From the IMG/VR virus record IMGVR_UViG_3300009790_003634, positions 1 to 21,777 of that record: a stretch of DNA of 21,777 nt, one strand, 5' to 3'. The position numbers and the translations under genes are program-made. Shown piece after piece: positions 15 to 20,246 of the stretch. The notes beneath the pieces were generated by a model, which saw only the letters and a list, made by a program, of their open reading frames with translations, was not told the origin of the DNA and ran no database searches. This DNA comes from a virus. The first letter of the stretch is position 1, and the number at the start of each line of letters is the position of its first letter.

Positions 15-1217
15 ATGAAAAAAGTATTATTAATAGCCCCAGTGATGTCACGTTCTGGTTATGGCGAAATGGGCAGGTTTGCCATGCGCTCATTAATCAG
101 TAACACAGACATTGATTTGTACATTCACAATATTAATTGGGGAAAAAGTGGATGGATTTGGAAAGATGATAATGAAAGAAAATTGATTGATTCATTATTA
201 CAAAAGACAGTTTTATATCGACAGAACGGTGGAACATTTGACGCGTCAATACAATGTACTATCGCAAATGAATGGCAAAGAATCACGCCATATGATGTAG
301 GATATACCGCTGGTATTGAAACAGACAAGATAGATCCGGAATGGATTAATAAATCTAATGGAATGAGCAAAGTTATAACAATTTCGAAACACAGTGCAGA
401 TGTAATCAAGGAAACTACATGGCAAGCCAGAAATGAAACCACTGGGGAACACATACCAGAATATAAATGCACGACTGCAGTTGAATATGTTGGATTCCCT
501 AAAAAAGATATTGAGTCTCAGGAACTAGAATTGAATTTAAGGCATGACTTTAATTTTCTATGTGTAGCTCAGATCGGCCCTAGAAAGAATGTCTTTGGTG
601 TTATAAATGCTTTCATAGAAGAGTTTAAGAATGAAAAAGTGGGATTATTGTTAAAGCTAAATGGAGCCAATGATTCTATTATGGATTACCATGCAACTTC
701 AACAATGTTCACAGAAATTTCGAAAGCAGCTAAAGAAGAAGAATGGGAATGCTCTATTAACTTTTTGCACGGGAACCTGACAGACGAACAGATGTCAGGA
801 TTATATAACGATCCCAGAATAAAAGCCGCAGTTTCTTTGACACACGGAGAAGGGTATGGGTTGCCACTATATGAGGCAGCATACAATAATTTACCTGTGA
901 TTGCTACAAACTGGAGTGGGCATTTAGACTTTCTCACAACTGGGACTGGCAAGAAAAAGAAAATTCACTTTGCTCCTGTAAAGTACGAACTTCAAAAAAT
1001 TCCACCGCATGCTGTGTGGGAAGGAGTTTTGCATCCTGAATCTAGATGGGCAGTGCCAGATCAAGCAGACGCCAAGAAGAAAATGAGAGACGTTTATAAA
1101 AATTACTCTAAATGGCAGAAGAAGGCAAAAAGCTTATCTAAAACTTTTAAAGGACAGGAATATTATTACAATAAGTTTATTGAAGCTTTAGGTTTAGAAA
1201 CAACTGAGGAAAGTTAA
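15..1217 (+). CDS. Glycosyltransferase, GT-B fold (GT4-like)
   Basis: Probable retaining glycosyltransferase that moves a sugar from a nucleotide donor to an unknown acceptor in the cytoplasm. The 400-aa length suits a two-domain GT-B enzyme. The N-terminus has a beta strand followed by a glycine-containing loop (GYGEMGR, residues 15-21). The C-terminal half opens with a strand and the phrase GPRKN (188-192), typical of the donor-binding domain. The EX7E motif of the GT4 group is visible as E279 and E287 in HGEGYGLPLYEA, followed by PVIATNWSG (294-302). The start follows GGAGG at 6-10, only 4 bases upstream. The stop is one base before the next gene, so it is the first visible member of the sugar operon; an earlier member may lie outside the window. 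Donor and acceptor cannot be read from sequence. Confidence 0.85.
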   Translation: MKKVLLIAPVMSRSGYGEMGRFAMRSLISNTDIDLYIHNINWGKSGWIWKDDNERKLIDSLLQKTVLYRQNGGTFDASIQCTIANEWQRITPYDVGYTAGIETDKIDPEWINKSNGMSKVITISKHSADVIKETTWQARNETTGEHIPEYKCTTAVEYVGFPKKDIESQELELNLRHDFNFLCVAQIGPRKNVFGVINAFIEEFKNEKVGLLLKLNGANDSIMDYHATSTMFTEISKAAKEEEWECSINFLHGNLTDEQMSGLYNDPRIKAAVSLTHGEGYGLPLYEAAYNNLPVIATNWSGHLDFLTTGTGKKKKIHFAPVKYELQKIPPHAVWEGVLHPESRWAVPDQADAKKKMRDVYKNYSKWQKKAKSLSKTFKGQEYYYNKFIEALGLETTEES

Positions 1218-1218
1218 T

Positions 1219-2199
1219 ATGAATAAGACAGCAATTATTACCGGTGTCACTGGGCAAGATGGTTCTTATTTGTCTGACTTATTGATTGAGAAAGGATATA
1301 CAGTTGTGGGAACTTATAGAAGATCAGTTTCTGATTTTGCCAATAAGACGCAAAACATTTCACATTTGTTGGATAATAGAAATTTCATTCTAGAAGAAGC
1401 AGACGTAACAGATTCTGCTTCTTTGTATCGCTTGGTTCATGAACACCAGCCAGATGAATATTATAACTTGGCTGCACAGTCACATGTCGGTACGAGCTTC
1501 AAAACGCCTATTAGTACCACTGAAATTAATTTGATGGGGTGTTTGTATGCTTTGGAAGCAATACGTCTTCAGAAGCCATCCTGCAAGTTTTACCAAGCTT
1601 CTACAAGTGAAATGTTTGGTGATAATACTAGGTGTCCTCAAGGGCTAGGAACAGAATTCTCACCAGTGTCTCCTTATGCATGCGCAAAATTAGCTGCACA
1701 TCACATGGTTGGTACATATAGGAAATCTTATGGCATCTATGCATGCTCAGGGGTTTTGTTTAATCATGAATCTCCCAGAAGGGGCGAAAATTTTGTAACA
1801 AGAAAAATAACAAAAGCTGCTGCCAGAATTAAACTAGGACTTCAAGACGAATTGAGATTAGGAAATTTATCAGCACAAAGAGATTGGGGGCATGCCCAAG
1901 ATTTTGTTAGGGGCATGTGGATGATGCTTCAGCGTGAAGAGCCTGATGATTTTGTTTTAGCAACCGGTAGGACAAATTCTGTACAACAATTTCTAGAACA
2001 TGTTTTTGAATTTGCAGAATTAGATATCAAGAAGCACGTTGTCATTGATCCTAAATTTTATCGCCCATGTGAAGTTCCAAAACTTTGGGGTGATCCCGGT
2101 AAAGCAATGACAGTACTTGGGTGGGTACCCGAATATGATTTTGAGACTTTAGCTTTAGAAATGTATGAAGCAGATTTATCAAGAGAGGGAACTGCATGA
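1219..2199 (+). CDS. gmd: GDP-mannose 4,6-dehydratase
   Basis: Short-chain dehydratase expected to convert GDP-D-mannose to GDP-4-keto-6-deoxy-D-mannose, the precursor of GDP-fucose, GDP-rhamnose and GDP-perosamine. The Rossmann NADP-binding motif is G9-V-T-G12-Q-D-G15. YNLAAQSHV (82-90), the catalytic T129-S130-E131, and Y153 with K157 in SPYACAK are all in place. The phrase NHESPRRGE (182-190) followed by FVTRKI, and RDWGHA (221-226), are strong signatures of this family rather than of general epimerases. At 326 aa it is slightly shorter than typical bacterial enzymes (about 345-375 aa). The start is preceded by AGGA at 1207-1210. The stop overlaps the next start (ATGA), suggesting translational coupling. 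No GDP-fucose synthase or reductase follows in this window, so the keto product must be handled by the aminotransferase nearby or by host enzymes. Confidence 0.93.
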   Translation: MNKTAIITGVTGQDGSYLSDLLIEKGYTVVGTYRRSVSDFANKTQNISHLLDNRNFILEEADVTDSASLYRLVHEHQPDEYYNLAAQSHVGTSFKTPISTTEINLMGCLYALEAIRLQKPSCKFYQASTSEMFGDNTRCPQGLGTEFSPVSPYACAKLAAHHMVGTYRKSYGIYACSGVLFNHESPRRGENFVTRKITKAAARIKLGLQDELRLGNLSAQRDWGHAQDFVRGMWMMLQREEPDDFVLATGRTNSVQQFLEHVFEFAELDIKKHVVIDPKFYRPCEVPKLWGDPGKAMTVLGWVPEYDFETLALEMYEADLSREGTA

Positions 2200-3149
2200 A
2201 AATTCTGATGATTAGTACACCGTATCAACCAACTGTGAATATTGGCTCTAATGGGCTGGGAAGGTTGGTATATGATTATGCACATAGAGCGTCCATGGAA
2301 GGGGATCAAGTCACAGTCTTCTGTGGTGAAGGATCTATATTGCCAGAAGGTGTACGCAGTCATTATTGGGCTCATGAGCCAATTGACATAGGAAGAGTGC
2401 ATAATATCTGCAGAAAAGAAAAATATGATGTAATATTGGATTGTAGTCATTTAAAAATATTGAGCAACATTTATGCTTACGAAAATATGCCCGTAGTGAA
2501 TTTTATGCTGGATGAAGAATGCAATTATCAACCTAAGAACATGCTTATCTGTAACGATCATCAGAAAAAAAGATATAAAGATTATCGATTTATGATCGAT
2601 ATAGGAATCGAATTTGAAAGGTATCCTTTGATCGAAGAGAAAGAAGATTATTTTTGCTTTTGCGCTAAAATAGAAAAAAGAAAAGGATACGATATTGCAA
2701 TAGAAGTTGCCAAGCGCACTGGAATTAAATTAATACTCGCTGGCCCACAAGTTCACTGGCAACCAGAAAGCGCTGAAGGATTACCTAATTGGATCGGCGA
2801 AATAACTGAACATGAAAAGTTTTGTAAGTTTGTTGGCGCCGCCAAGGCTATTTTTTGTCCTTCTAGAAATGATGCTGGAGGGTTAGTTCTATTAGAAGCT
2901 GCCGCATTGGGAACACCTGTTATAACAACTACACACTCCGGAGCACAACATCACACTTTAGACGGACAAACTGGTTTTGTGTGTGATAGCATCGAAGATA
3001 TGTGCAGAGCAGTAACGGGCATCGAGAATTTAACACCAAAAGACATCAGAAACACCGCTCGTAAAAAGTGGGATCTACAGAGTAACTTTGCTGCGTTTAG
3101 GAATGTGCTAATACAAGTCAGTGAAGAGCACAAAGGGGCGAACAAGTGA
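2196..3149 (+). CDS. Glycosyltransferase, GT4-like
   Basis: Second GT-B glycosyltransferase of the cassette, 317 aa. The N-terminus (KILMISTPYQP, then a glycine-containing GSNGLGRLVYDYAH at 17-30) is the acceptor-side Rossmann domain of GT4 enzymes. The C-terminal domain starts near F153 with AKIEKRKGYDIAIE (157-170), reads LILAGP at 179-184, and contains PSRNDAGGLVLLEAAALGTPV (222-242). In the usual EX7E motif the first acidic residue is D226 and the second is E234, a mild substitution also possible in active enzymes. The gene begins inside the gmd stop (ATGA) and ends inside the next start (GTGA), so it is co-translated with the dehydratase and acetyltransferase. The likely role is transfer of a deoxy- or amino-sugar made by the neighbours. 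It is shorter than most GT4 proteins (350-400 aa) because the N-terminal domain is compact. Confidence 0.87.
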   Translation: MKILMISTPYQPTVNIGSNGLGRLVYDYAHRASMEGDQVTVFCGEGSILPEGVRSHYWAHEPIDIGRVHNICRKEKYDVILDCSHLKILSNIYAYENMPVVNFMLDEECNYQPKNMLICNDHQKKRYKDYRFMIDIGIEFERYPLIEEKEDYFCFCAKIEKRKGYDIAIEVAKRTGIKLILAGPQVHWQPESAEGLPNWIGEITEHEKFCKFVGAAKAIFCPSRNDAGGLVLLEAAALGTPVITTTHSGAQHHTLDGQTGFVCDSIEDMCRAVTGIENLTPKDIRNTARKKWDLQSNFAAFRNVLIQVSEEHKGANK

Positions 3150-3538
3150 GATTAATTAAAAATAGTTATATTTATTGGGAATTTATAAGAAATCTTAGAA
3201 ATATGGACGGAGTAAGAGAAGGGTTCATACAGCAAGATATAATTTTACCGACAAAGCATGAAGAATATATGAAGAAGAATAGCCATTCTTTTTGGATCTG
3301 CCTTGATGAAGACAAGCCAATTGGATATATCGGTGTTGTAGATTTAGATATTCGTGTCGCCACCCTTCCCGATTATCAAGGAAAGGGTGTGGCATCTTTT
3401 ATGTTAAATGAAATAATGAAGAAAAAACCTAACGCCGTTTCGAAAGTGAAGATCAGTAACCTTGCTAGCTTACGTTTGTTCGAAAAGTGCGGATTTGAAA
3501 AGAAATATTACCTTTTGGAGAAGAAAAATGAGACATAA
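3146..3538 (+). CDS. GNAT family N-acetyltransferase
   Basis: A 130-aa single-domain GNAT enzyme, expected to move an acetyl group from acetyl-CoA to an amine. The acetyl-CoA loop (motif A) is YQGKGVA at 77-83, after the central strand VATLP, and the motif B region reads NLASLRLFEKCGFEKK (105-120), a very typical GNAT ending. The N-terminal MDGVREGF stretch (20-27) resembles GNATs that acetylate amino-sugar nucleotides. The start is GTG, overlapping the preceding TGA (GTGA). The 3' end overlaps the next gene by 11 bases. Between a glycosyltransferase and a sugar aminotransferase, the likely substrate is an amino-dideoxy sugar nucleotide, as for WecD, which is also GNAT. That substrate is inference; a protein or small-molecule amine is an alternative. 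Confidence 0.85.
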   Translation: MRLIKNSYIYWEFIRNLRNMDGVREGFIQQDIILPTKHEEYMKKNSHSFWICLDEDKPIGYIGVVDLDIRVATLPDYQGKGVASFMLNEIMKKKPNAVSKVKISNLASLRLFEKCGFEKKYYLLEKKNET

Positions 3539-4142
3539 TCCATATAAAATTGTAAAAATGTTTGAAGAAACAATGGCTGATTATTGCGGCTCTAAGTATG
3601 CCGTATCGACAGATAATTGTACCGACGCACTATTGTTGTGTTGTGAATATTTAAAAGTCGAAGAAGTTGTGATTCCAGAGAGGACTTATTTATCAGTCCC
3701 GCAATCAATTATACATGCCGGCGGAAAAGTTGTGTTTGATGGCAGAGAATGGCAAGGCATATATCAACTCAAGCCTTATCCAATCTACGACGCTGCAAAG
3801 AGGCTGACATCAAATATGTATGTTCCCGGTACGTTTATGTGTTTGTCTTTTCACATCAAAAAGCATTTAAAAATTGGTAAAGGCGGCATGATTTTGACTG
3901 ATGATCTGGATGCCGCAAAATGGTTTCGCAAAGGCAGGTATGAAGGTAGAGGCGAGGTTATGTATCACCAAGACGAGATCGAGATCAATGGTTGGAATGC
4001 ATATATGTCACCAGAGCAAGCCGCCCGTGGGCTTATGTTAATGCAAAACTACCCGGAGCATGTTCCAGATATACCAGAAGATCCTCCATACCGCCGCCTA
4101 ACAGAGTTTCCTTTGTTTAAAAATTGTGAGGTGAGAAAATGA
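3528..4142 (+). CDS. Minimal DegT/DnrJ/EryC1-type sugar aminotransferase
   Basis: PLP-dependent sugar aminotransferase family (fold type I, like WecE, PerA and ArnB), but only 204 aa against the usual 360-400. Visible landmarks in family order: a CGSKYAV opening (20-26), NCTDALLL (30-37), VIPERTYLS (48-56), GGKVVFD (65-71), YDAAK (87-91) whose D88 would hold the PLP ring nitrogen, and SFHIKKH (107-113) whose K112 aligns with the Schiff-base lysine. GKGGMILTDD (117-126) and MSPEQAARGL (160-169) follow. About 40-50 residues normally found between the VFD strand and the DAA motif are absent, and the whole C-terminal small domain is missing. The residue after DAA is K rather than the common Q. 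ATG 3528 is chosen because GGAG lies at 3517-3520; the frame stays open upstream to 3462, but that part only overlaps the acetyltransferase. The stop overlaps the next start (ATGA). Confidence 0.83.
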   Translation: MRHNPYKIVKMFEETMADYCGSKYAVSTDNCTDALLLCCEYLKVEEVVIPERTYLSVPQSIIHAGGKVVFDGREWQGIYQLKPYPIYDAAKRLTSNMYVPGTFMCLSFHIKKHLKIGKGGMILTDDLDAAKWFRKGRYEGRGEVMYHQDEIEINGWNAYMSPEQAARGLMLMQNYPEHVPDIPEDPPYRRLTEFPLFKNCEVRK

Positions 4143-5095
4143 AATTAGTAGTTATCACCGGCTGTTTAGGGCTTATTGGTAGTCACGTCACCAGAAAATG
4201 TTTAGAAAAAGGCTGGAAAGTTATGGGAATCGACAAGATGACATATGCAGCAAACGAATGGGCTCTAGAGGAATTTCAAGCACACAAAAATTTTATATTT
4301 AAAAAAGAAGATATATGCAATTTATCAACTTTACCTGATTGCGATTATGTTATAAACATCGCAGCAGAATCTCATGTCGAGAATAGTATTAAAGATTCTG
4401 ACGTCTTTATGCAGTCAAATGTTCTGGGTGTTAAAAACTTATTAAACATAATCAAAGATAAGCATGCAAATGTTTTTAATCGTCCAATCTTTTTTCATTT
4501 TAGCACCGATGAAGTGTATGGAGATATTAGAAATGGCTCTCATACCGAAACTGATATCTTAAAGCCAAGCAACCCTTATTCGGCATCAAAAGCCGCCGCT
4601 GATATGTTAGTGTTAGCTTGGGCTAGAACATATGATATAGAATATATAATATTGCGCCCAACCAACAATTATGGAATAGGGCAGTATTGTGAAAAATTGA
4701 TACCTTTGTCGTGCAAACTGTTAACTCTCAATCGTAAAATAAATTTACACGATAAGGGACAACCAGTAAGAAATTGGTTACACTCTGATGACACAGCCTC
4801 AGCCGTTGTAAGGATTATTGAGTCTGGAAAAGTGAATGAAATATTCAATGTCGCTGGCAACTTAGAACAAAAAAATTATACGACAGCAGTGAAGATAGTA
4901 AGAGCCTTCCATCCGAATATTGAAGAAAGAAATATATCAAGTTTTTTCAATTTGGAACATGTTAGAAAAGGGCAAGATGTTAGATACTCCCTAGATGACG
5001 AAAAATTAAAAGAATTAGGATGGAAGCCAAAGAAAAAATTTGATGAAGAGATCATAAACATAGTGGAATACTATAAAAATAATTTTAAATGGTAA
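4139..5095 (+). CDS. NAD-dependent sugar 4,6-dehydratase, RmlB-like
   Basis: Extended short-chain dehydrogenase most like dTDP-glucose 4,6-dehydratase (RmlB), which forms dTDP-4-keto-6-deoxy-glucose. The NAD motif is G8-C-L-G11-L-I-G14. IAAESHVENSI (74-84) matches the RmlB phrase, the catalytic STDEVYG (122-128) carries the T-D-E triad, and Y147 with K151 sit in YSASK. RPTNNYGIGQYCEKLIPL (173-190) and GQPVRNWLHSDD (207-218) are further RmlB-type signatures. At 318 aa it is slightly shorter than RmlB (about 355 aa). It is last in the sugar operon, coupled by ATGA to the aminotransferase, so its 4-keto product is a natural substrate for that enzyme. A UDP-sugar dehydratase or epimerase is the main alternative. 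With gmd also present, the phage may feed two nucleotide-sugar pools. Confidence 0.85.
   Translation: MKLVVITGCLGLIGSHVTRKCLEKGWKVMGIDKMTYAANEWALEEFQAHKNFIFKKEDICNLSTLPDCDYVINIAAESHVENSIKDSDVFMQSNVLGVKNLLNIIKDKHANVFNRPIFFHFSTDEVYGDIRNGSHTETDILKPSNPYSASKAAADMLVLAWARTYDIEYIILRPTNNYGIGQYCEKLIPLSCKLLTLNRKINLHDKGQPVRNWLHSDDTASAVVRIIESGKVNEIFNVAGNLEQKNYTTAVKIVRAFHPNIEERNISSFFNLEHVRKGQDVRYSLDDEKLKELGWKPKKKFDEEIINIVEYYKNNFKW
5072..5079 (+). promoter_or_regulatory. Candidate T4-type late promoter octamer
   Basis: TATAAAAA, a 7 of 8 match to the T4 late consensus TATAAATA, lies 30 bases before the start of the first gene of the transcription block, inside the end of the RmlB-like gene. The same octamer also occurs by chance inside coding sequence (around 1095 and 13090), so specificity is poor. 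It is listed because of its position at a functional boundary. Confidence 0.2.
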
Positions 5096-5567: not shown

Positions 5568-5878
5568 TTATAGAAATAATATTGGGACTTTCTGTCCTGA
5601 TAAACATAGTTTTGGGGTGGTATATTTATAAGCTTTTACGAAATTTGATAGATATTGAAGATCGTTTTTTAGATATGAAATCTAAGCTTATTGAATTTGC
5701 AACGCATTTGCGAGCAATAAACAGAGTTGAATCTTTTTATGGCGATCCTACGATTACAGCGCTCATAGAACACATGAAGAGGTTATCAGATGATATTGAA
5801 GAATATTCAAGAGTCATGGTTGTTTTTGAAGATGATATGGAGGATTTAGAAGATGACGACGAAAAAGAAGAGAACTAG
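5564..5878 (+). CDS. Small membrane-anchored acidic protein
   Basis: A 104-aa protein of unknown function. Residues 1-24 (IIEIILGLSVLINIVLGWYI) form one hydrophobic segment that would act as an uncleaved N-terminal membrane anchor. A charged helix follows (LRNLIDIEDRFLDMKSKLIEF), then a middle part with YGDPTITALIEHMKRL, and a strongly acidic tail (EDDMEDLEDDDEKEE). The topology suggests one membrane pass with the long part probably in the cytoplasm. The start overlaps the previous stop (ATGA). The last 26 bases overlap the sigma factor gene in another frame, and the acidic tail is encoded by that shared stretch, whose GGAGG (5839-5843) also serves as the sigma gene's ribosome site. The function is not recognised. 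Confidence 0.62.
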   Translation: MIIEIILGLSVLINIVLGWYIYKLLRNLIDIEDRFLDMKSKLIEFATHLRAINRVESFYGDPTITALIEHMKRLSDDIEEYSRVMVVFEDDMEDLEDDDEKEEN

Positions 5879-6560
5879 AAAGCCTAGAACTAAAAGAATG
5901 TACTTTACTCAAGTACATGAAGATGCCATTATTGAATACAATAATAGCACAGATTTCAAAAGAAAAACAGAGTTATATGAAACGCTCATACACCCAGCCT
6001 TAGACGAAATGGTGGACAAAATAGTATATACTTACAAATTTACTTCTTTACCTAATATAGCAGAACTGCAGTCTGATTGTAAGGTAATGTTGGTTACAAT
6101 ATTGCACAAATATGATCCATCAAAAGGCTCGAAAGCTTTTTCATATTTTTCTGTTATAACAAAGAATTGGTTTATCGCACAAGTTAAAAAGAATGCCAAG
6201 AAAAACAAAAGAGAAGTGTCTATGGAAAGTTACTTGTCCATGGAAAAAATTGGAGGCACTGAATTATATGCCGAAGATCCGTACCACGCGATGAAAGAGA
6301 GAGAAGAATTTATGAACCTTCTCAAAGAAGAGATAAATTCATGGGATTCCGTTAGCATGCGCCCAAATGAAAAGAAAGTATATGAAGCCATAAAGACTTT
6401 ATTAGACAATGCTGACAAGTTGGAAATATTTAATAAAAAAGCTATTTACTTATACCTAAGAGAAATAACCGGTTTAAACACTAAGCAAATTGTAGCTCAG
6501 TTGTCTAAAATGCGTGTGAAATACTCTGATTTTAAAACTAGGTATGAGAATGGTGATTGA
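5853..6560 (+). CDS. 55: Late-transcription sigma factor, T4 gp55-like
   Basis: A 235-aa minimal sigma-70-family protein, expected to direct host RNA polymerase core to phage late promoters. A basic N-terminus (TTKKKRTRKPRTKR) precedes a region-2-like segment at about residues 40-115. Its core, KYDPSKGSKAFSYFSVITKNW (86-106), matches the region 2 pattern of T4 gp55, where aromatic residues lie near the -10 melting surface. There is no obvious region 4 helix-turn-helix, as expected for gp55, which relies on the co-activator gp33 and the sliding clamp. The C-terminus (TRYENGD) lacks a clear hydrophobic-acidic clamp-binding tail. The start follows TGGAGG at 5838-5843 within the upstream gene. 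Its place directly before the tail genes fits late regulation. The main alternative is another phage ECF-like sigma factor. Confidence 0.8.
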   Translation: MTTKKKRTRKPRTKRMYFTQVHEDAIIEYNNSTDFKRKTELYETLIHPALDEMVDKIVYTYKFTSLPNIAELQSDCKVMLVTILHKYDPSKGSKAFSYFSVITKNWFIAQVKKNAKKNKREVSMESYLSMEKIGGTELYAEDPYHAMKEREEFMNLLKEEINSWDSVSMRPNEKKVYEAIKTLLDNADKLEIFNKKAIYLYLREITGLNTKQIVAQLSKMRVKYSDFKTRYENGD

Positions 6561-6562
6561 AT

Positions 6563-6868
6563 ATGTCAAAAAGACTTAATAAATTTATAGAAGAAGCGGT
6601 TAAAAATATTAGGAAAGATCGCGAAACAACACAAGAATTGTTAAATGATTTGATAAAAATAGCTGCCCAAAGCGAACATAACCACAAAGAGGTTAGCATC
6701 GCGGCAGCTAAATACGTTGAAACGTTGCAAAGATCAAACGAGCAGCTAGTAAAACTAGCTAGCTTGGTACAAAAAGATGAAAAAAAAGATTCATCTTTTT
6801 CCTTTTCCGGAACTGACAAAGATGATATTTATGATATGATCAAACAAGAAGAAGATAAGGAGGAATAA
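6563..6868 (+). CDS. Small helical protein, possible gp33-like late co-activator
   Basis: A protein of about 101 aa made almost wholly of charged helix, with heptad-like spacing in TQELLNDLIKIAAQ and AAAKYVETLQRSNEQLVKLA, then a lysine/serine linker and an acidic C-terminus (DKDDIYDMIKQEEDKEE). It has no signal peptide, membrane segment or cysteine. The start is uncertain: ATG 6563 is chosen, but TTG 6557, overlapping the sigma stop as TTGA, is also possible and would add two residues. Only a weak purine run precedes either. Size, acidic tail with hydrophobic residues (I, Y, M, I), and position next to the gp55-like gene suggest a functional counterpart of T4 gp33, which bridges polymerase and clamp. 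That is inference from context; I cannot recognise the sequence itself with confidence. Confidence 0.6.
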   Translation: MSKRLNKFIEEAVKNIRKDRETTQELLNDLIKIAAQSEHNHKEVSIAAAKYVETLQRSNEQLVKLASLVQKDEKKDSSFSFSGTDKDDIYDMIKQEEDKEE

Positions 6869-6871
6869 TGA

Positions 6872-9361
6872 ATGTCAAAATTCGTACCACCACCAGATCA
6901 AATCAACAGCATTAATCCCAAAAAATCTAAAAAATCTTTTGATGAAAATGGGCAATCGATTTTTAGTGAAATCAAAAAGGTAATCAAAGAATCTTTTGAA
7001 GCCGACGCCTTTGAGCAAGTCGGTGCATTAAATGCTGTTGTATTGGAGATTAGAGAACCAGACGTTATGGCGATGTTCTGGAGAAATCCTTTGATGTGGT
7101 ACCAGTTTATGTCTAAGGGGCAGATCCCGGATTACTTAGAAGTCCGATATAGAATCCCAGAAATGCATGCCCATCTTCCAGAGCCTTCCGGCCCTGATGA
7201 TTGGCTAGCTATCAATCTTCATCCATATGCTATGATGAAGAAAGAGAAGGGAATGCCCGCAGTCGGCGACATTGTTGTTTTGGATTTTCAAGATAAAAAC
7301 AACTTTAGAGGCGCCATGGTTCTGGAGACTCTTAACACCAACGAAAACCCAAACTCTGGCGGAAATTGTAAATCAACCGATACATCAAATTCTGCAGCGC
7401 CACCTTTGAATATGGCAGCACCCGCTGGAGATAGCCAAACATCGCCTCCGCAAAATTATTCAGCGACTAACAGCCCAACACCTGAAAGCTCGACGCAAGG
7501 CATAAACTATCCTGTTGGCTCAATATCCAGTGGAGAGCAGTCCCAAGTAGATTCGGAATCGATTGGCAGTCAAACCACAGATCCTGCAGATCCTTATTAC
7601 ACCGGTGGTACTCAACCTGTTATTGCACAAGCAGATTTAGAGCAGTTTAAGAAGAATTTATATTTTATCAAAATAGAAGATTTGAGAACCATGTCAGATT
7701 TTCGAAATGTTGATAATGCCGCAGAGACTTTGTTGGGTAAAAAAGTGGGAGCGGTTTGCTTTTCAGTCGCTGAAGGAGAGACGAAAGTTAGTGATGTCTC
7801 TAGGGTTAAAAAGCTGATAGAAAAGTTAAAAATAGCTAATATTGACGTTGGACTCTCTATAGAAATAACATCAATGGATCAGTTTCATGACAATTTTATT
7901 TTTATGGCTGAAATTGCAAAAACCAAAAAAGTTGATTTTATAGCGTACAACTTGGTTAATAACAATAGTTTTGATCAAATCGATCGCCACGATATGATAT
8001 TCCATAATTTTAGTACAAATATGAAAATAGATTATTACGCTATCATAACAGAAAAAACTGAAAATCCAACATCAGGATTCTGCACCAAACGACAGAATAG
8101 ATTGTTTTTAAATGATAACTCTTATGACTACATTGAGAACAATGAACCGTCTTTATACGATACGCAATTTAACTCTTCTGGTGCCGCTATCGGATCCTTC
8201 TCGGCGCTTCACACAACTTCAACAGACGGGAATAGCATGTTTTTTCCAGCATATCATTTGGGAGGAATCAACTTCTTGTCAACACCGGATGAGCCTTGTG
8301 TTAACGGTGAAAGATCGAATGACATCTTAGCTAAGGATATTAAACAACATTCTGAAATCATAGACAGTCCTCATGCCACTAAGCACATAAGCTTGTTTAT
8401 GGACTTTCATTTGCTTAAAAACGATAATGCAACTCAAATTTTAAAATCAACATCTGCCATCGATCTAGACGAAAAGCAAAAGCAAAGGTTCCTAAGTAGT
8501 GACAAGAATACCCAAACAACCAATATAGCTAACGTTGTAAATAAAGTCTCCACGGCAGTCGATCAATCGATTCAGCAACCTACATTCAACAGTGCTTCTA
8601 CGGACACGAACACTGGAGGCGCCGCTGCAAATGGGGGAGAAGGGACTGGTGACACTCAAACTCCTGCAGCAACAAGCCCATCTGCATTTGCTTCTACACC
8701 CGGTATGCAGTGCACACCAGTAGCTACAGGTGCCGAAGGCGGTGGGCCGGGAGGCGCAGGAGGCGCAGGAGCAGCAGTTGATCCTCCATCATTCAGATTT
8801 GATTCTCTTGAAAATTATCAGAATCTAGGATGGACAGCCAATAATAGCGCGGCTATAAATAATGTTATTTTCGAATTTATGGAAAAGTTTTCTGCAGCAG
8901 TCTACAGGAGATTGCCCGCAAACTCTCCAAGCTTTACAGGCTCAAACCCGAAAAAAATAAGATTAACATCTACTGCTAGAACATTCCAAAAACAAGCCGA
9001 ACTAATGTGGGATAAGATCAAAAATGGCGGTGGCGATAGTGCTGTTTACAGTTTATATGGCAGAAAAGAGTGGACTGAGGCTGTTGTAAATGCATATCAT
9101 GCAGGCAACATGCCTGCAGCAGTTGCTGCTGTTGAGAAGAGGGTTAATAGTGGAGGTGGCTCCGCCCACCTTAAAGGAAAAGGGGTTGATGTGCACACTT
9201 GGAGTCACATTAATGCCGAAGGAATGAATTCAGACGGTGCAACAGTCGCACAGATGAATAATTCGAAATTTGTTCAAGCAGTTGTTGAGGCAGCAAAAGA
9301 AGTTGGCGCAAGTCCAGTTGTCGAAGCATATCAACAACATGTTCATATAACAATATTTTAA
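6872..9361 (+). CDS. Baseplate hub protein, gp5-like, with C-terminal M15-type peptidase
   Basis: An 829-aa modular protein, probably the central hub/cell-wall-degrading part of the baseplate. Residues 47-155 look like the OB-fold domain of T4 gp5, ending in the pattern VGDIVVLDFQD..FRGAMVLET. Residues 156-255 are a Pro/Ser/Thr/Asn-rich linker. Residues 255-545 form a second domain with alternating strands and helices (GAVCFSVAEG, RVKKLIEKLK, VGLSIEI, VDFIAYNLV), perhaps a TIM-like barrel. Residues 546-640 are another low-complexity Gly/Ala/Thr linker. The C-terminus (641-829) carries an M15-type zinc peptidase pattern: TSTARTFQKQAEL (699-711), then S764-A-H766..G769..D773 fitting SxHxxGxAxD, and H823/H825 near the end. 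H766, D773 and H825 are the likely zinc ligands. T4 gp5 has a lysozyme instead. The start follows AAGGAGG at 6857-6863. The substrate is presumably peptidoglycan peptide. Confidence 0.8.
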   Translation: MSKFVPPPDQINSINPKKSKKSFDENGQSIFSEIKKVIKESFEADAFEQVGALNAVVLEIREPDVMAMFWRNPLMWYQFMSKGQIPDYLEVRYRIPEMHAHLPEPSGPDDWLAINLHPYAMMKKEKGMPAVGDIVVLDFQDKNNFRGAMVLETLNTNENPNSGGNCKSTDTSNSAAPPLNMAAPAGDSQTSPPQNYSATNSPTPESSTQGINYPVGSISSGEQSQVDSESIGSQTTDPADPYYTGGTQPVIAQADLEQFKKNLYFIKIEDLRTMSDFRNVDNAAETLLGKKVGAVCFSVAEGETKVSDVSRVKKLIEKLKIANIDVGLSIEITSMDQFHDNFIFMAEIAKTKKVDFIAYNLVNNNSFDQIDRHDMIFHNFSTNMKIDYYAIITEKTENPTSGFCTKRQNRLFLNDNSYDYIENNEPSLYDTQFNSSGAAIGSFSALHTTSTDGNSMFFPAYHLGGINFLSTPDEPCVNGERSNDILAKDIKQHSEIIDSPHATKHISLFMDFHLLKNDNATQILKSTSAIDLDEKQKQRFLSSDKNTQTTNIANVVNKVSTAVDQSIQQPTFNSASTDTNTGGAAANGGEGTGDTQTPAATSPSAFASTPGMQCTPVATGAEGGGPGGAGGAGAAVDPPSFRFDSLENYQNLGWTANNSAAINNVIFEFMEKFSAAVYRRLPANSPSFTGSNPKKIRLTSTARTFQKQAELMWDKIKNGGGDSAVYSLYGRKEWTEAVVNAYHAGNMPAAVAAVEKRVNSGGGSAHLKGKGVDVHTWSHINAEGMNSDGATVAQMNNSKFVQAVVEAAKEVGASPVVEAYQQHVHITIF
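8750..8767 (+). repeat. Tandem 9-base repeat in hub linker
   Basis: Two exact copies of GGAGGCGCA lie within a GC-rich stretch (about 8735-8780) of the otherwise AT-rich hub gene. They encode Gly/Ala residues of the flexible linker before the peptidase domain (protein residues about 622-636) and are likely to vary in length by slippage. Confidence 0.6.
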
Positions 9362-9391: not shown

Positions 9392-10327
9392 GTGTCAAAA
9401 CTAAAAAGCGCCCTAAACTTAGAAGGACTAAGTGAAAAAATCAGACAAGATCTGGATAACACCCCGACATACCTGCAAGGTGTATTGGGTAGAGGTACAG
9501 CAAACGCTAGAACGATAGAGCCCAAGCCCAAATTTGTCCAAGCTGAGGCTGAAAAAATTCTAGATAGCGGCACAAACGCACAGATAGTCATAGGAAAAGA
9601 TCGCCCAGCTTCTTTATTATCCGGATATGGAGGAAGGGGTGATAGTGGAGCAGGTACAATTGATATTGTATCCGGAAGAATGTCTCACAATCCTTGTCAA
9701 GTCGATCAGTCTGGCAAAGAACTTCGGACAAATCCGGATTTTAAATTAGATGCATCTAGAATATACATAAGTCAAAAAACAGATATTGATGATAATTTTG
9801 ACTTAGCAGATGGAAAAGTTGGCAATTCCAAAGCCCGTGCCGGAATGGCTTTGAAGTCAGACGCCGTTAGAATAATAGGAAGAGAAGGCATAAAACTAAT
9901 CACAGGGACAGATGTTAAAAATTCTACTGGTGAGGATATTTTAAGTGTTTCGGGAATAGATTTGATTGCAGGAAATGATGATAGCGATTTACAGCCAATT
10001 CCATTGGGTGATAATTTAAACAGATCTTTGAGAAGATTGACTAATTATGTAGACAAGCTAGCTGGAATTTTACAATCTGCAATTGTTTATCAGCTAAAGT
10101 TCAATGCAAAAGTAATGGCACATACTCATATAACAGCTTTTTTTGGTACCCCTACCGCCCCTTCTGAATCGTTGATACCAGCCGGCATCACAGTGATTAC
10201 TGATCATTCTACAACCACAATACCTGATTTAGTGAAATTTAGATCAAACACAAAGTTTCACAAACAAACTTATTATTCAGTTTCTGGCAAAAGATACATC
10301 AATAGTAGCTTCAATAATACAAACTAA
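9392..10327 (+). CDS. Baseplate spike/needle-like structural protein
   Basis: A 311-aa probable virion protein, likely part of the central spike under the hub. The start is GTG, with GGAG at 9381-9384. The N-terminus (1-60) is charged and helical. The centre (about 75-175) has glycine-rich, strand-forming phrases such as SGYGGRGDSGAGTID and GMALKSDAVRIIGREGIKLIT (151-171), which resemble the beta-helical repeats of phage spike proteins. Residues 200-245 read LQPIPLGDNLNRSLRRL, then a helix leading to AHTHITAFFG (243-252), a pattern common in spike and VgrG-like C-terminal segments where the HTH histidines may bind a metal. In T4 the beta-helix belongs to gp5; here it would be a separate polypeptide right after the hub. 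The end is a polar beta-rich tail (YYSVSGKRYINSS). The assignment is by pattern, not by a clear family match. Confidence 0.58.
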   Translation: MSKLKSALNLEGLSEKIRQDLDNTPTYLQGVLGRGTANARTIEPKPKFVQAEAEKILDSGTNAQIVIGKDRPASLLSGYGGRGDSGAGTIDIVSGRMSHNPCQVDQSGKELRTNPDFKLDASRIYISQKTDIDDNFDLADGKVGNSKARAGMALKSDAVRIIGREGIKLITGTDVKNSTGEDILSVSGIDLIAGNDDSDLQPIPLGDNLNRSLRRLTNYVDKLAGILQSAIVYQLKFNAKVMAHTHITAFFGTPTAPSESLIPAGITVITDHSTTTIPDLVKFRSNTKFHKQTYYSVSGKRYINSSFNNTN

Positions 10328-10338
10328 GGACATAAAAT

Positions 10339-13300
10339 ATGGCAACCGGCGCAACAGCAACAACATTTAGAGTTTTGATAGATACAGAAATCTATGAATC
10401 AGTTCAGTCTTTATCGAACCCCATTGGAACCTTACTTTCTGATCAGGAAGTTACTTTAATTGAACCTAACTTGGGAAAATATTTTCAATTAAGTAAGATT
10501 TCTTACGAAACCAGCGGAACAACAAAAGAGACTTTTATAAGATCTTGCTTTCTAGCACCAGCAGCAGGTAACTCATCTCCACCCGAAACATATGAATTAA
10601 TTGGTGAAGAGGTGGAAGAGCCAGTACCGAATCCAATCAAAGTTAAAGATGCTGAAATAGAAACACCATATGCCGAAGGAAAGCACATAAATGTTGTTAT
10701 AGATTCAGGCTTTGTCGATATGAAAGATATTGATGATAATTTGATGGATCTAAAGCTAACAGCAATTTCTAAAATGATAGAATTTTATGGCAAGAACGCA
10801 ACATCAACACAATTGAATGAGTTTATTGCAAATCCTTTTGGCTTGATTAAGATGGGTGAAACATATTTCCCTACTCGTCCTTGTAAGGGTATCGTAATTA
10901 AATTTTCTGTAAGAAAAAAGTATTTTGATGCTTTTGAGGATATGTCTTTTGATGATTTTTCGATTAGGAATATTCATAAAAACTTTATCGCAATAAACAT
11001 TCAAGGTAAACAGTTTGAAAAGTCAATGTCTGATTTGGTTAAGGTATTGGGAAAATATAATTCTGATGTGGGTAAATTTAGTGGATCTTTGGTAGGTATT
11101 AATTTTGATAAAAGCGGCAACGAAGTTAGGAATTTTTTATCTAATTTCAAAAAATTTCTTTCAAGTAATAATGTTTCATTAGCAAATGTAGGAGAATCAA
11201 AGTTTGAGCTTGGATTCAATATGGAAACATATCGGCTAGAATATGTATTACACTTTAGTCCATATGGAAATTTTCTTACTGTTGGACTAAAAGCATTAGC
11301 CGCTCAAATAAATGCAACAACATCTAAGATTTTAATAGCACATAAAGATATTGTATCTGCATCTTTAGGTGGCATGAATTGGATGGATTTATGTAATAAT
11401 TTCTTGGCTGGAGAATTTAAAATTGATTTTTCAACTCCATCTGTAAAAAGTCCAAGCCTTAAGAAACCTAAAAGCCAACTCGAAGCAGATATGAAAAGAG
11501 TGTCTGCTGATTATGACGACTTAACCATTATGGATAGCGACAAGAATGGACAACTAGCAAACTTGAAAACAGATCCAAAATTCAAAGAAAAAGCATCAGA
11601 ACTTTTGTTGAGATCTCGTGATGTGGTAGGTGATAACTTCTTAGCAAACTTACCAGAGATTTTAGCCAATGTTGACGATCTGAATTCATTATATGGCTTA
11701 GTCTTTGATAAAGTTTCGATAAAAGATTTGGTTGATCTGTTGATGGAGAAAATGACAGAAAACTTAAATGTACCGGATATCAATGAAATCAAACTAAGGG
11801 GTATAATGAAGGCTTTGACGCCGAATATGGCATTAGGTTTGATAGAAGAATTCATCGAAACACCCCAACAATTAAGCGCTTTTTCTGTTGGCGTGTGCGA
11901 TTTAATAGAAATTTCAGAAAACAATATCGATGATATTCTGGGTAGCTTTAGCTCAATAGACAACCCGATACAATTCTATTTGATACACTATAAAGATTCA
12001 AGCCCCGGTGTTCCTGCAGGAATGCTGGCAGATGCTTATGTTGGAGACTTGGCTGCAAAGCTAGAAGAAAACGGCATCACTGATTGTGAATCACTTTATA
12101 GCGCCTACCGAAACAATAATTTTAATATTAGCGACTATTTCCAAGAAACGGCTCTAAAAACTATAATATGTGAAATCTTGACAAACGGACTACCAGAAAT
12201 GACTGACATATGCGTGTACACTCCCACCGTCACCGCCACCTCGATAACGTCTTTTACTTCGTATGGAGTATCTTCACCCGTTTTAAATGCTGATATCATG
12301 AGCTTTCTGAAATCAATTGACGCCAGTATTCTCGTAAAAGGCATTGATGTGTTTATCAAAGACATGTTTGCTGATGCACAAAATTACCAAAAACAGCTTA
12401 ATATTGACGCAAACGCCTCGTCTTATGTACCCGGTACCGCAACCCCAGACTATAGTGGAGTAAAATTCTCTATAACTCCCGGTGATCTATTTGATCGCTT
12501 TGCAAAGATACCAAAAATAAAAATAGAATTAGATAAATTGTCTTTGACTAAGAAGAAAATGTTAAATAAAGTGCCAAATGTTAATCTAGATTTGGAAAGT
12601 AAAAAGAAAGATGTTAATTTTTCCTTGCCATCTATCAAAAGTGTCAATCCTAGTTTTGACTTTTCTAGTTTCGAATTTGAATCTATCGGCGATATCTTTG
12701 GACAAGCGGTAGAGTCAATTGAAAATGCCATAGTAGATGGCATCGAGAAAGGGCTTATTAATGCATTTAAGGGTATACTACAAAACGTTTTAGATTCTTT
12801 AAACATGGATATGCCAGATATAGATTCTCCAGATTTTGGCGGATTGAATATGAATGATCTCATGGACGCATCGGACGGCACTAGTGCAGACATAGTGACT
12901 AGTATAATATTGGATGATTTGAAGTTTGAAATCGGAAAATTCAATCCGGATTTTGACTCAAATGCTGTAGATATTTCCGGATATACTCCATCTCTATCAG
13001 ATGTCAAAACGGCGTTCGATGATATGTCAGCATGCCTTAAGCCTCTAGAACTGACAAGAGTTATGAAAGGACAATTTAATAAAAAAGATTATAAAAATAT
13101 GACGTCTTCGATCAAAGATCCAAACTTAAAGCAAGCCTTTAATCCTAGTGCGTTCAATAGAGCAATGGAAATGATTGCTGATTTTGTTGATGTGGACATG
13201 CTAGAAGAATTGGAAGATGCATACGACAACAAGCAAGTTATGGTTGCGGTATGCAAAAACCATGGAGTTCCTTACTGCCTCAGAGATATAAAAGTGACAT

Positions 13301-16300
13301 TAGAGGAAAAATACGCTTCCTTATCACCAGCAGAAATCTGCGATCTAATAGACGATATAGTTGATGAAACAAAAGATTCACTAGTTGATGCCATTGGAAA
13401 TATGAAAGAAAATTTCCAAGACAATCTTCCTTTTAATGAAGATCCTTGTTCTTTTATGCCCAAGCCGGCAGACATTCCAGCTATGGATTTCGTAAATAAT
13501 GTGGCTTTTGATGCAATTTTTAATCCGATTGAATTGGAATATAAAGCAGAAGCTGCAAGCTTTCCTGACTTGATGTTAATGTCTACATCCCCAGAAGAGT
13601 ATGTCAAGTGCCGACTTTACCAATATGATTCTGTTCCTGTTGAGGTTTTGCAAGATCCTGCAACTGGACTATTTGACATTGAATATGACTTTATTAGTAA
13701 TGTCATGGGTGATGACTTTGACAAAGAAACCGGTGCATTTAATCAAGACTTTTCGAATCATTATTTCGGCCCACAAACACCGGTGTACTACCTAGGAAAT
13801 GATAGAAACTATTATCAAGTTGAAAATTTATCTCTTATTGAGATCGATAAGCAAAATGATGAATATTTTATAAACAGAAATGACACACCTTCGGTTGACG
13901 ATAATTTATATGTAAAAAAAGCTACTGAATCTCTTCGTCCGATACCTAGGCTAAAAGAGAGTTATATAGATTCTGGATTTATCATAAGAGGTTATGGATC
14001 CACCGGTGCTTCCGGCGTTGGTATGGTTTATTCCGGCGGGGGAGGCACGGGTACCGCCGCAGTAGAGGAAATGAGAAATATAACTAACGCAAGAATCGCC
14101 AGAGGATATGAGATACAATTTCCAAGTCTTTCGGCAGAAGCCACCATGGCATCTGAAGATTTTACACCAGCGGATTTAGAAGCTGAAGACTCCGGTGACG
14201 ATGAAGTGCTAAATTTGCTTATCGGAGAAGATAGATCTCTAACTAGTATCGCCAGATCTCCCAAGATCAAATTTGACGTTGGCGCCAACAGAACCACGAT
14301 ATCAAATTCAGCTAACATGACTTATCCTTCAGTTGATGCATTAGTTAACCCACAATGTGTTAAGTTGGATTCCGAATATAATGTCGAGACTGACACAGGA
14401 TATCCTTATTACGCAAAATCTATTCAAGATTCGATTGATGAAACGCAACGAAGACTGTTCGAAGAATATGGACTATATACCGCCAGCCCCTTTAGAGAAT
14501 TTTTAGGATTTTACACTGACGGACATGACTCCATGGCTCAAAGTTTTATCAAAGACGAGCGTGAAGATTGTGACTTAATTGCAAACATGACAGCAGACAT
14601 AGCACAAACAATGATGAGAGCTATGGGCGAGTCGCCATTATTCGACACCAATGAAATGTTATCGTTTTTGTTTGAGACTGAAGATGTGAATTTATTTAAA
14701 GTTCAAGAAGCCAAAGGCGCCGCAAAAGATGATTTCAATGAAGACTGTGAATTTAAAGATGATAATAAATCAAAATTAAAATCTTCTTCAACAAAGCAAC
14801 TAATTTATTTAACTTTTAGAATATACACAATTGATCTTTTGATGAAATCTTGTTTCATAAATAGCGTTGTTTACGAAGAAGAAATGAGCGACTACATGAT
14901 AAAGTTCATATTCGAATATATGGTACAAGAACTCAAAAGAGAAAAAGAATCATATTATTCTGTTTTTAAAGATTTATATAGCCAAGAATATGGTGAAGAT
15001 CTAGAATCAAAATTCCCAGATCCACCAAAGAAGTTTAAGTCCATTGTTTCAGAAATTTATCTAGATATGCGAAGTTACTTTAGTACTATATTTCCAAATG
15101 CTATGGATGGCACAATACGAGCCGCTGTTTCGGGCATGAAAGTGTTTTCGGGTACCGAATCTGAGTACCCTAGGGAATTGTATGATACATACATGTATGG
15201 CAGAAATATCCCTAGTGAAAACTCTAGATTTTTGATACAACTGCTTTTCCAGAGAGACGATGGTACAGAAGTATTTTTGAACAATAGTACATATGCCGAA
15301 CGCTCTCATGATACGCCAATCATAATCAGGCTGAATTATGTATTTGATTACTATAATACTGTAAATTCGAACGTTCGAAAAAACATCGACGAAGATGTCG
15401 CCATTCCCGGTATAATGGTGGGAGAAGGAGGCATTCCGCCGTCCACCATCGAATACGCATGGCTTAAAAAACATGATCCAGTACTCTACAGCGATGACGA
15501 CGATGTACATCACTCAGCGATTGGACAAGAGAATCTGCAAGGGCGTTCAGCACCAGCTTACGATTTGGGAGATTACAGATCATCTTACGTTAACGAGGAA
15601 AAACAAGCTTATCTACCTATTCAAGTTCATAAGATGAGAAGAACAAAATCGTTTCTCATGCAGTACTCTTCACGAGAAGGTTTTTGGGCTTATCATGAGG
15701 AGCCATATCTAGTTGTATTGCCATTAGCTGAAACTCGAATAGATGTAGGATCAGATACTTATGATAATTTTAAATCGGAAGGATATCAATTATTTCGCTC
15801 TATACAAGCTCAAAATAAGCCATATATCATCGATAAAAAAGAATATAATTATGACACATTCATCGCAATGTCAATCGCAAAATTTGTCTCCGATTCTGCA
15901 GACGGCTCTCACGCTGTAGAATATTCAATACACGATTTCTTGAAAAATAGAATGAGAGTAGATAGCTACATAGATTTGATTAGAAGAACTATGTTAGTAA
16001 AATTACAACAATTGAAGCCGGAAGTGTTGTTCGCCTTTCAAGATACTAAAAATGCAATTAGAAGGGGAATAATGTCCCTTTCAAAAGAAAAAGAAGTGTT
16101 TGATTATGTAGAATTAGAGACAGATACGACTATGGGCGATCAATCTCAGGGAGTTGGTACGAGTCCAGATTTTTCCCCTAAAGCTAAAAAAATGGCACTT
16201 ATGACAGTACCAATGATTGTGAAAGGTATGGCGGAAATGTTCGATCCAAATATCAAAGTCGCTTCTGTGATTAGAAAAGCCGCTAATGCCTCTGGTTTGG

Positions 16301-18040: not shown

Positions 18041-18421
18041 ATGTCAAACATATCCCCAGCATTGCCATTAACCATAGATCCTACAAACGGCTTCTTGAAC
18101 AACCACACAGAAGTTTCAGCAATAGTTCAAGATTTGAAAATGTTACTTTTAACATCTCCGGGCGAACGCGTCATGGATCCTAATTTTGGCGTAGGCATGA
18201 GAAGGTTTTTGTTCGAACAGAATAATACAACCACCCATTCTTCGATCAAGGCTAAAATCATGAGACAGGCAAAAGAATACTTACCGTTTATTGATATACA
18301 AGAAATATCCTTTAGCACCGAAGATGACTCTTCAAATGTCAGAGCAAATGGATTGATGGTGTCAATAAGATTCGTTATTGCTCCACTGGGAATTTCTACA
18401 ACTGCCAATATAACGGTTTAA
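18041..18421 (+). CDS. 25: Baseplate wedge protein gp25
   Basis: A 126-aa baseplate wedge subunit of the GPW/gp25 family, found in contractile tails and type VI secretion (TssE-like). It joins the wedge gp6 to the hub or tube-sheath initiation complex. The family hallmark spans residues 35-59: LLLTSPGERVMDPNFG, then a basic MRRFLFE. R43 and the E42 neighbour belong to the conserved PGER turn. The C-terminus is a beta sandwich half (VRANGLMVSIRFVIAPLG). Length matches T4 gp25 (132 aa). The start follows TGAGGA just upstream (about 18028-18033). It lies after the 118-base gap and 13 bases before gp6, forming a unit with it, in line with their direct physical contact in T4. Confidence 0.92.
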   Translation: MSNISPALPLTIDPTNGFLNNHTEVSAIVQDLKMLLLTSPGERVMDPNFGVGMRRFLFEQNNTTTHSSIKAKIMRQAKEYLPFIDIQEISFSTEDDSSNVRANGLMVSIRFVIAPLGISTTANITV

Positions 18422-18434
18422 AAGAGGAAAATAA

Positions 18435-20246
18435 ATGGCTAAATATGATGATAAAAACAAAAAGATCCCAATCAGATATACAAGCAGGGACTTCAATAAT
18501 ATAAAAAAGGATTTGGTAAGTTACGCAAAAAGATACTATCCGGATTCGTACAAAGACTTCAATGAAGCGTCTTTTGGTTCGTTAATGTTTGACACGGTGG
18601 CGTACACTGGAGACATCTTATCTTTCTATTTGGACTACCAAACAAACGAATGTTTTTTGGATACTGCCAATGAATATAATAATGTCGTGAAACTTACTAG
18701 ACAAATGGGTTATAAATATCGAGGACGTCCCTCGACTCATGGATATGTTTCTTTTTTCATTTTAGTGCCCGCCGACTCTAACGGACTTCAACCTGACAGC
18801 AAATATATACCAATATTAAAAAGACGAACAGAAATGTCCTCTGATAATGGAGAAAACTTTTTATTAACTGAAGATGTAGATTTCAGAAAAGCAGGAAATG
18901 AGGTGGTTGTTGGGCGTGTCAATTCATCAACCGGGCTACCAACACATTATATTATAAAAGCAACAGGAAGGGTGATATCTGGAAGACTTCAACAAAAAAA
19001 TGTTAATCTAGAAGAATTCAAAAAATTCAATAGAATCTTTATTGGAGATGCAAATATATCAGAAATATTAGAATGCACTGATATTGAAGGGCATGAATAT
19101 TATGAAGTCGAAAACTTAGCACAAGATGTGATTTACAGAGATATTCCAAATTCAGATTCGGCTAGCCGAGATGCAACACCGATGATATTAAAGCCATATG
19201 CTGTTCCTAGACGATTTGTTGTCGAAAGGAATGGTGGGCAAACATTCATGCAGTTTGGATATGGCTCAGAAGAGGACATAAAGATTGACAAAATTGTTGA
19301 TCCTTCTAATATTGTTTTAAATCAATTTGGAAGAGATTATATTTTAAATACAGATTTTGATCCAGCAAATTTGCTAGGAAGTGACAAGTTTGGCGTCTCC
19401 CCTGTCAATACTACTTTGAGGATCGTATATCGTTCGAATGATAGCGATAATCCAAATGCAGCAGTTGGTTCTGTCAAGCAAATTGTTAGGGCTATATACA
19501 GCTTTGAAGATCAAACAAACTTGGACGAAGGAAAAGTGAACGATGTTAGATCTTCTTTGGAATGCACGAACGAAGCAGCAATTGTAGGGCATGCGAACAT
19601 ACCTTCAACTGAAGAATTAAAAATTCGTACAAAATCGTTTTTCGCAACACAAAACAGAGCAGTAACTAGAGATGATTATAAATCTTTAGTATACAATATG
19701 CCTGCAAAATACGGTGCCATCAAAAGATGCGCAATATTGCAAGATAGAGATTCATTTAAGAGAAATCTCAATATGTACCTTATCTCAGAAAACTCTGCTG
19801 GCAATCTTACACAATCAAATGATATTTTAAAGTCAAATGTCAAGACATGGCTTAATCAACATAGAATGGTTAACGATACTTTGGACATTATGGACGCCAA
19901 GATAATTAACCTATCAATTAACTTTGTCATCGTCACAAAAGGCGGATATGATAAGTTTAGAGTATTAGATAATTGTTTACGAACAATTCGTGCTCGCTTC
20001 ACAAGACATTTTGATATTTCAGAACCCCTGAGTTATACAGAAATTTATTCGACTTTGAACAGGATCGAAGGCGTGGCAGACACATCAGATGTAACAGTTT
20101 TAAACCAAAATGGCGGCGCCTATTCTAATACTATGTTAGATATTGGCAAGAATACCACACCGGATGGAAGATTTGTTGCATGCCCTCTAAATTGTGTTTT
20201 TGAAGTAAAGTTTCCATCCATAGATATTAAAGGGAGTGTTAAATAA
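18435..20246 (+). CDS. 6: Baseplate wedge protein gp6 (baseplate J-like)
   Basis: A 603-aa counterpart of T4 gp6 (660 aa), the wedge protein whose dimers form the inner iris-like ring of the baseplate. The N-terminus has the typical IPIRYTSRDFNNIKKDL (residues 11-27), then FNEASFGSLMFDTVAYTGDI and LDYQTNECFLDTA, matching the gp6/baseplate J opening where the chain forms the helical bundle with gp25 and gp7. The central part is beta-rich. The phrase FATQNRAVTRDDYKSLV (about 400-416) is the hallmark of the baseplate_J fold. The C-terminal domain (from about 465) has the INLSINFVIVTKGGYDKF beta-alpha pattern. The start follows GAGG at 18424-18427. The stop overlaps the next start (TAATG). The family call is secure; assembly details are from T4. 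Confidence 0.92.
   Translation: MAKYDDKNKKIPIRYTSRDFNNIKKDLVSYAKRYYPDSYKDFNEASFGSLMFDTVAYTGDILSFYLDYQTNECFLDTANEYNNVVKLTRQMGYKYRGRPSTHGYVSFFILVPADSNGLQPDSKYIPILKRRTEMSSDNGENFLLTEDVDFRKAGNEVVVGRVNSSTGLPTHYIIKATGRVISGRLQQKNVNLEEFKKFNRIFIGDANISEILECTDIEGHEYYEVENLAQDVIYRDIPNSDSASRDATPMILKPYAVPRRFVVERNGGQTFMQFGYGSEEDIKIDKIVDPSNIVLNQFGRDYILNTDFDPANLLGSDKFGVSPVNTTLRIVYRSNDSDNPNAAVGSVKQIVRAIYSFEDQTNLDEGKVNDVRSSLECTNEAAIVGHANIPSTEELKIRTKSFFATQNRAVTRDDYKSLVYNMPAKYGAIKRCAILQDRDSFKRNLNMYLISENSAGNLTQSNDILKSNVKTWLNQHRMVNDTLDIMDAKIINLSINFVIVTKGGYDKFRVLDNCLRTIRARFTRHFDISEPLSYTEIYSTLNRIEGVADTSDVTVLNQNGGAYSNTMLDIGKNTTPDGRFVACPLNCVFEVKFPSIDIKGSVK

Follow-up and report, generated by a model that had tools for sequence, protein, structure and literature searches.

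T4 gp5 is the paradigm of a baseplate hub that carries a tail lysozyme. The locus described here raises two linked questions: whether the hub-like protein of an uncultured T4-like phage carries a wall enzyme of another class, and whether such a replacement is a single event or part of a wider pattern. We analysed a virus record of IMG/VR, 21,777 bases long and hereafter called the window, whose source is an uncultured marine T4-like myovirus.

A hub-like gene in a T4-like baseplate region

The gene of interest is open over 829 amino acids on the + strand, as the earlier note had read it, and stops abound on the opposite strand of the window. The genes around it follow one another in this order:

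5853..6560, + strand: late sigma factor-like gene (phrog_234, E = 2e-8), a constant upstream neighbour of equal size and position in most relatives
6557..6868, + strand: gene of ~100 aa directly 5' of the hub gene, its size and place constant in most relatives
6872..9361, + strand: hub-like ORF with C-terminal M15-type peptidase (829 aa; full-length relatives in IMG/VR)
9392..10327, + strand: putative spike half, 311 aa (23-member alignment, invariant H244-x-H246), a constant downstream neighbour
10339-17922: gene for a 2527-aa protein, between spike and gp25
18041..18421, + strand: baseplate wedge gp25 (Pfam GPW_gp25, E = 2.5e-14; phrog_261, E = 4.5e-18)
18435..20246, + strand: baseplate wedge gp6 (phrog_219, E = 4e-23)

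Together, the late sigma factor, hub, 311-aa, 2527-aa, gp25 and gp6 genes identify the window as the baseplate region of a T4-like myovirus, and the gp5-like position earlier attributed to the hub gene is borne out by this cluster. It is from gene position that we infer a tail-tip role for the 829-aa protein. The 2527-aa protein had no Pfam, PHROG or PDB match; it is kept in relatives over its first ~1200 residues and in a block at ~1860-2100. Directly upstream of the tail genes, a block at 15-5095 encodes glycosyltransferases, two nucleotide-sugar epimerases and an acetyltransferase, and also holds a short (226 aa) aminotransferase-like ORF.

Used whole as a query, the 829-aa protein gave nothing useful in Pfam, PHROGs or PDB sequences and no relative in cultured phages (tblastn), and single-sequence patterns derived from it likewise gave nothing useful in IMG/VR. 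A Polysacc_deac_1 match (E = 0.057) was dropped, being below the cut-off and without the matching motif. Hub relatives were reached by using gp6 and the 311-aa spike gene as bait. Full-length relatives in other IMG/VR contigs are 34-45% identical from end to end and share three conserved blocks: N-terminal, middle and the C-terminal 190 residues. A profile of the C-terminal domain found no relative in 84,980 bacterial and archaeal genomes. The putative spike is highly conserved, with about 470 relatives in IMG/VR and none in cultured phages (tblastn), and is a good marker for this uncultured lineage.

A divergent M15-type peptidase domain at the C-terminus

The C-terminal block holds the following features:

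8798..9358, + strand: C-terminal M15-type peptidase domain, residues 643-829 (pLDDT 93.2; VanXYc among the top PDB matches; profile match to VanY-type hubs)
8978..8980, + strand: R703 of a T-S-T-x-R-T-x-x-x-Q motif, counterpart of S-G-x-R-T...Q in VanY
9167..9169, + strand: H766, predicted zinc ligand 1, invariant in 10 related domains
9188..9190, + strand: D773, predicted zinc ligand 2, invariant in the same 10
9323..9325, + strand: E818, predicted catalytic base, also invariant in the 10
9344..9346, + strand: H825, predicted zinc ligand 3, forming H-x-H with H823, again invariant in the 10

The three residues that had been proposed as an M15 zinc set, H766, D773 and H825, do lie at those positions, within S-A-H-L-K-G-K-G-V-D and H-V-H-I, and they correspond to the M15 triad H-x6-D ... 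H. Seven residues ahead of H825 stands E818, an acid close before the last zinc histidine as in M15 enzymes, and the VanY hub domains likewise have a conserved E ahead of the last H. In ten related domains with 28-64% identity to that of the window, G769, Y820 and H823 are invariant along with the predicted ligands and E818, and R703, T704 and Q708 of the first motif are kept in nine of the ten. Such conservation of H766, D773 and H825 is not due to chance.

Profile searching of this domain against M15 families is a check that the earlier note had put forward. No Pfam M15 model reached its cut-off on the single sequence (VanY, 14.8 bits against a cut-off of 25, E = 0.025; the best weak match was DUF5715, E = 0.0022), whereas a profile-profile comparison (hhalign) that set the window-type domain against 13 hub domains of this slot, the majority being VanY domains confirmed by Pfam, gave P = 6.3e-5. 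The alignment pairs T-S-T-x-R-T...Q with S-G-F-R-T...Q and also S-x-H-x-x-G-x-x-x-D, that is, both M15 motifs. A local rerun scored 38.7; none of 40 column shuffles exceeded 16.6, and the reversed profile reached 14.2. Two PDB sequences matched by the C-terminal profile (3n8b/3nm7, E = 0.016) were left unused, because all they cover is a helical insertion, which separates the R703/Q708 motif from H766, and the first half of the zinc motif.

The AlphaFold2 model of the domain (mean pLDDT 93) placed VanXYc chains at ranks 1, 2, 6, 8 and 10 of the Foldseek matches in PDB, with probability 0.89, TM 0.40-0.43 and a weak E-value of 0.11 that probably reflects the extra helices separating the two motifs. 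Among the best BFVD matches were viral M15B peptidases, which ranked after a direct relative. Motif, profile-profile match and, at weak E-values, the predicted fold point to the M15-type enzyme first suspected at this C-terminus, with a Pfam score below threshold, and we conclude that this is a divergent M15-type metallopeptidase domain whose predicted active site is intact.

Inactive copies of wall enzymes do occur, and a domain as divergent as this one, below the Pfam thresholds and interrupted by a helical insertion, might have kept the M15 fold while being catalytically dead, or serve only as a peptidoglycan-binding or structural cap. We regard this as improbable, since ten divergent members all keep the predicted zinc ligands, E818 and H823, which is unexpected for a dead domain, and since other occupants of the slot bear plainly different hydrolases.

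Base domain, middle domain and linker

Three further regions precede the peptidase:

7022..7342, + strand: residues 51-157, a beta-rich domain at the N-terminus and the constant portion of the slot (aligned in 24 relatives)
7649..8491, + strand: middle domain, residues about 260-540, a predicted TIM barrel (AlphaFold2 and Foldseek)
8492..8791, + strand: low-complexity linker, residues 541-640, rich in Gly, Ala, Pro, Ser and Thr (pLDDT under 50), variable among relatives

The N-terminal domain aligns across the 24 relatives even as these bear different enzymes, and AlphaFold2 predicted five strands in it with low confidence. The earlier note had taken it as an OB-like segment fitting gp5. Its profile gave P = 0.064 against the OB domains of eight proteins recognised as gp5, which is suggestive and not significant, over a collinear alignment of 75 columns, and P = 0.17 with T4 gp5 by itself; the domain is possibly a gp5-type OB fold. 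It might instead be another baseplate domain, such as a gp27-like hub part or a new adaptor. The non-significant profile comparison is compatible with this alternative, and so is Anabaena phage A-1(L), which has its enzymes on the hub and an OB fold on the spike (PMC10966104). The collinearity of the best gp5 OB alignment speaks in the other direction, as does the length of the shortest members of the slot, about 190-210 aa, which is small for a gp27-type barrel set. We hold another baseplate domain to be rather unlikely; it would concern the anchor only and would be compatible with the enzyme described above.

The TIM barrel is a third domain that the earlier reading did not contain. Its best Foldseek matches were a GH113 mannanase and hevamine/GH18. 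Its only invariant acids are D308 and D419, and an active glycosidase was rejected as unsupported, there being no conserved catalytic acid at the ends of the barrel strands; a binding role is accordingly more likely. In another hub (L048:1938-5228), a region that resembles a TIM barrel by eye lies ahead of an Amidase_2 domain, which suggests that the barrel itself may also be an exchangeable module.

A probable spike in the next gene

The 829-aa chain has no C-terminal triple-stranded beta-helix: it ends with the peptidase, and a spike-like protein is encoded by the next gene. Profile comparison of this 311-aa protein with the spike-like half of a 378-aa protein of Flavobacterium phage immuto gave P = 0.0016, and 9392-10327 probably encodes the spike portion of the tail-tip device. 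This suggests a device split between two genes, with base and enzyme in one and the spike in the next. The enzyme had been thought to have moved to the C-terminus relative to gp5; with the spike apparently in the following gene, it would not have moved, and the order base-enzyme-spike would be that of gp5.

Recurrent exchange of wall enzymes in the hub slot

The order late sigma factor, ~100-aa gene, hub and spike is kept in most related contigs with a long enough flank, and the hub itself ranges from 192 to 1564 aa. Across ~60 related viral loci, the enzymes of the slot are single, combined or absent. The Pfam domains found there comprise VanY/M15_3/M15_4, Amidase_2, M23, SLT, GH19, CHAP and GDSL, together with Phage_lysozyme, Phage_lysozyme2 and muramidase. 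Some contigs have the slot split over two ORFs, and four loci (L102, L107, with 210 aa, L108 and L116) encode the N-terminal domain with no enzyme. We could assign a class to 62 of 75 loci, 40 of which carry an M15 domain; labels taken from Pfam models under-call this class, a lineage-specific M15 model having added L112, L123 and L133.

A quick maximum-likelihood spike tree required a minimum of 21 changes of enzyme class, and 14 for the presence of M15, both counts being approximate because of undetected domains and weak branches; some of the changes are recent. Breakpoints seen directly in pairs of contigs give firmer support than these counts. In the pair L132 and L136, spike identity is 95% and the DNA on either flank is 77-85% identical; hub identity is 67% over residues 1-188, after which L132 has VanY and L136 SLT. 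The closest VanY domains to that of L132 are found in L080 and L140 (47-48%), two loci with spikes just 41-43% identical to the L132 spike. L037 and L093 (spikes 71% identical) have hubs 44% identical over residues 1-247, followed by GH19 in one and VanY in the other; L073 and L076 (spikes 79% identical) have hubs that match as far as residue ~1199 and continue with M23 in one and VanY in the other; and in L110 and L102 an N-terminus 42% identical is followed by M15_4 and by nothing, respectively. In addition, a close relative of the window hub (L061:3700-6621) has a lytic transglycosylase between TIM barrel and M15 (PDB 9udh, E = 7e-18), so that a single protein contains two wall enzymes.

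The enzyme breakpoints fall behind the N-terminal domain, and the slot behind this domain is an exchangeable cassette in which wall enzymes have been swapped repeatedly. The enzyme swap claimed for this tail-tip protein is real and represents one case of a much broader series. Contigs of metagenomic origin could be misassembled, and domains missed by Pfam, as with M15 in L112 and others, could inflate the apparent diversity; that the whole pattern is an artefact of this kind appears extremely improbable, since direct alignment reveals exchange in separate contig pairs whose flanks are conserved on both sides and since exchange recurs in many independent contigs. A more specific proposal, to which we give about even odds, is that the lineage has made its tail tip a cassette slot: a constant base of ~190 residues and a constant spike would flank a site where recombination at a fixed junction exchanges peptidoglycan enzymes of many families, unrelated or different in action, frequently as pairs and in some cases with no enzyme at all. 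The exchange would track host wall chemistry, with M15, not lysozyme, as the commonest occupant.

L132:1528-4131 consists of two tandem hub genes with a common N-terminal domain and different enzymes, the second having an amidase-type domain (local model), and in its sister L136 a single hub bears a third enzyme. The tandem genes are possibly an intermediate of cassette exchange.

A proposed role in entry

The best explanation of these observations, to which we assign a probability of roughly 0.8, is that 6872-9361 encodes a tail-tip virion protein in which a base domain is combined with a divergent M15 peptidase, held in an exchangeable slot, that opens the wall at entry. The N-terminal domain would dock the protein in the central baseplate, beside or atop the spike encoded by the next gene, and the TIM barrel, probably a binding domain, and the flexible linker would carry the M15 zinc endopeptidase at the C-terminus. 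When the sheath contracts, the spike would pierce the outer membrane; cleavage of the stem or cross-link peptide by the peptidase would then breach the peptidoglycan, an entry job equivalent to that of gp5 lysozyme in T4. That the cut would be in the peptide follows from membership in M15. Some phage M15 endolysins cleave L-Ala-D-Glu, and the target here might be this bond or a D,D bond.

A separate Amidase_2 protein of 299 aa (L157:1126-2025) is encoded next to a ClpP-like protease in a relative of 184,889 bp with the same hub. By eye, its N-terminal stretch resembles a peptidoglycan-binding domain. Such a domain together with Amidase_2 is a usual build of endolysins, and this protein is a probable lysis endolysin. 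With an endolysin-like amidase present elsewhere, the hub enzyme most likely serves entry and probably not lysis.

The same gene bears on another reading, in which 6872-9361 would itself be a lysis endolysin located in the tail operon by chance and not a virion protein. M15 domains of cultured phages are indeed mostly annotated as endolysins. We nonetheless consider this very improbable: the constant N-terminal domain stays with every enzyme class and persists even in the four loci with no enzyme, the gene is placed between the late sigma factor and the baseplate genes, and the separate amidase gene is available in the 184,889-bp relative.

M15 domains occur in about two thirds of the tail-tip slots that could be classed in this T4-like marine lineage. 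Many slots combine two enzyme classes, and the enzyme differs between closely related viruses. If confirmed, the lineage would offer a natural collection of wall enzymes that are brought across an outer membrane, and it would become testable whether the entry enzyme, besides the fibre, limits host range.

Comparison with known systems

The window hub resembles T4 gp5 in being part of a putative tail-tip device encoded next to baseplate genes, with an N-terminal base domain, a wall enzyme and a spike in succession. It differs in bearing an M15-type peptidase in place of the lysozyme, of which searches with the window protein gave no match, in its additional TIM-barrel domain, in having the spike in a separate gene, and in an OB homology that is not demonstrable by sequence. 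The hubs of Ackermannviridae (Erwinia phage Bue1 and Serratia phage 3M) are also gp5-type OB proteins that adjoin gp25 and in which the lysozyme has been replaced; however, the enzyme is of another class (recorded as 'cell wall-associated hydrolase' and NlpC/P60-like by eye) and the spike belongs to the same chain. Read by eye, the gp5 sequences of Vibrio phages D485 and K414 and of cyanophage ACG-2014b have no evident lysozyme. The gp5 enzyme thus appears to vary already among cultured phages.

Hub gp15 of the Anabaena myophage A-1(L) has lysozyme, endoglucanase and peptidase domains with demonstrated enzyme activity, and a separate OB spike (PMC10966104). Like the window protein, it is a baseplate hub with the spike on a separate protein, here with peptidase and glycan-cutting domains; in contrast, it belongs to another phage lineage, its three enzyme domains are added to a conserved hub barrel, and its peptidase is of no named family in the text consulted (PMC10966104). 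With VanXYc, the M15B/VanY D,D-peptidases and M15 phage endolysins, the window's C-terminal domain shares the zinc motif, the predicted catalytic Glu and, at weak Foldseek E-values, the predicted fold, but it occurs in a putative virion-protein context, has a helical insertion and falls short of the Pfam thresholds. A related gp6 (31-32% identity) and a similar baseplate operon are present in Microcystis phage Mel-JY01 and Flavobacterium phage immuto, but their base and spike apparently form one chain, and the enzyme, if any, is a separate gene; beside the gene for its probable base and spike protein, Mel-JY01 encodes a GH19-type 'putative chitinase'.

It is documented in general that phage tail proteins and lysins undergo domain shuffling (PMC10684548). 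In the literature searched, we came across neither a T4-like hub with an M15 domain nor such an enzyme-cassette exchange at this position. Relative to known hub variation, the interesting part is the recurrent exchange of the enzyme.
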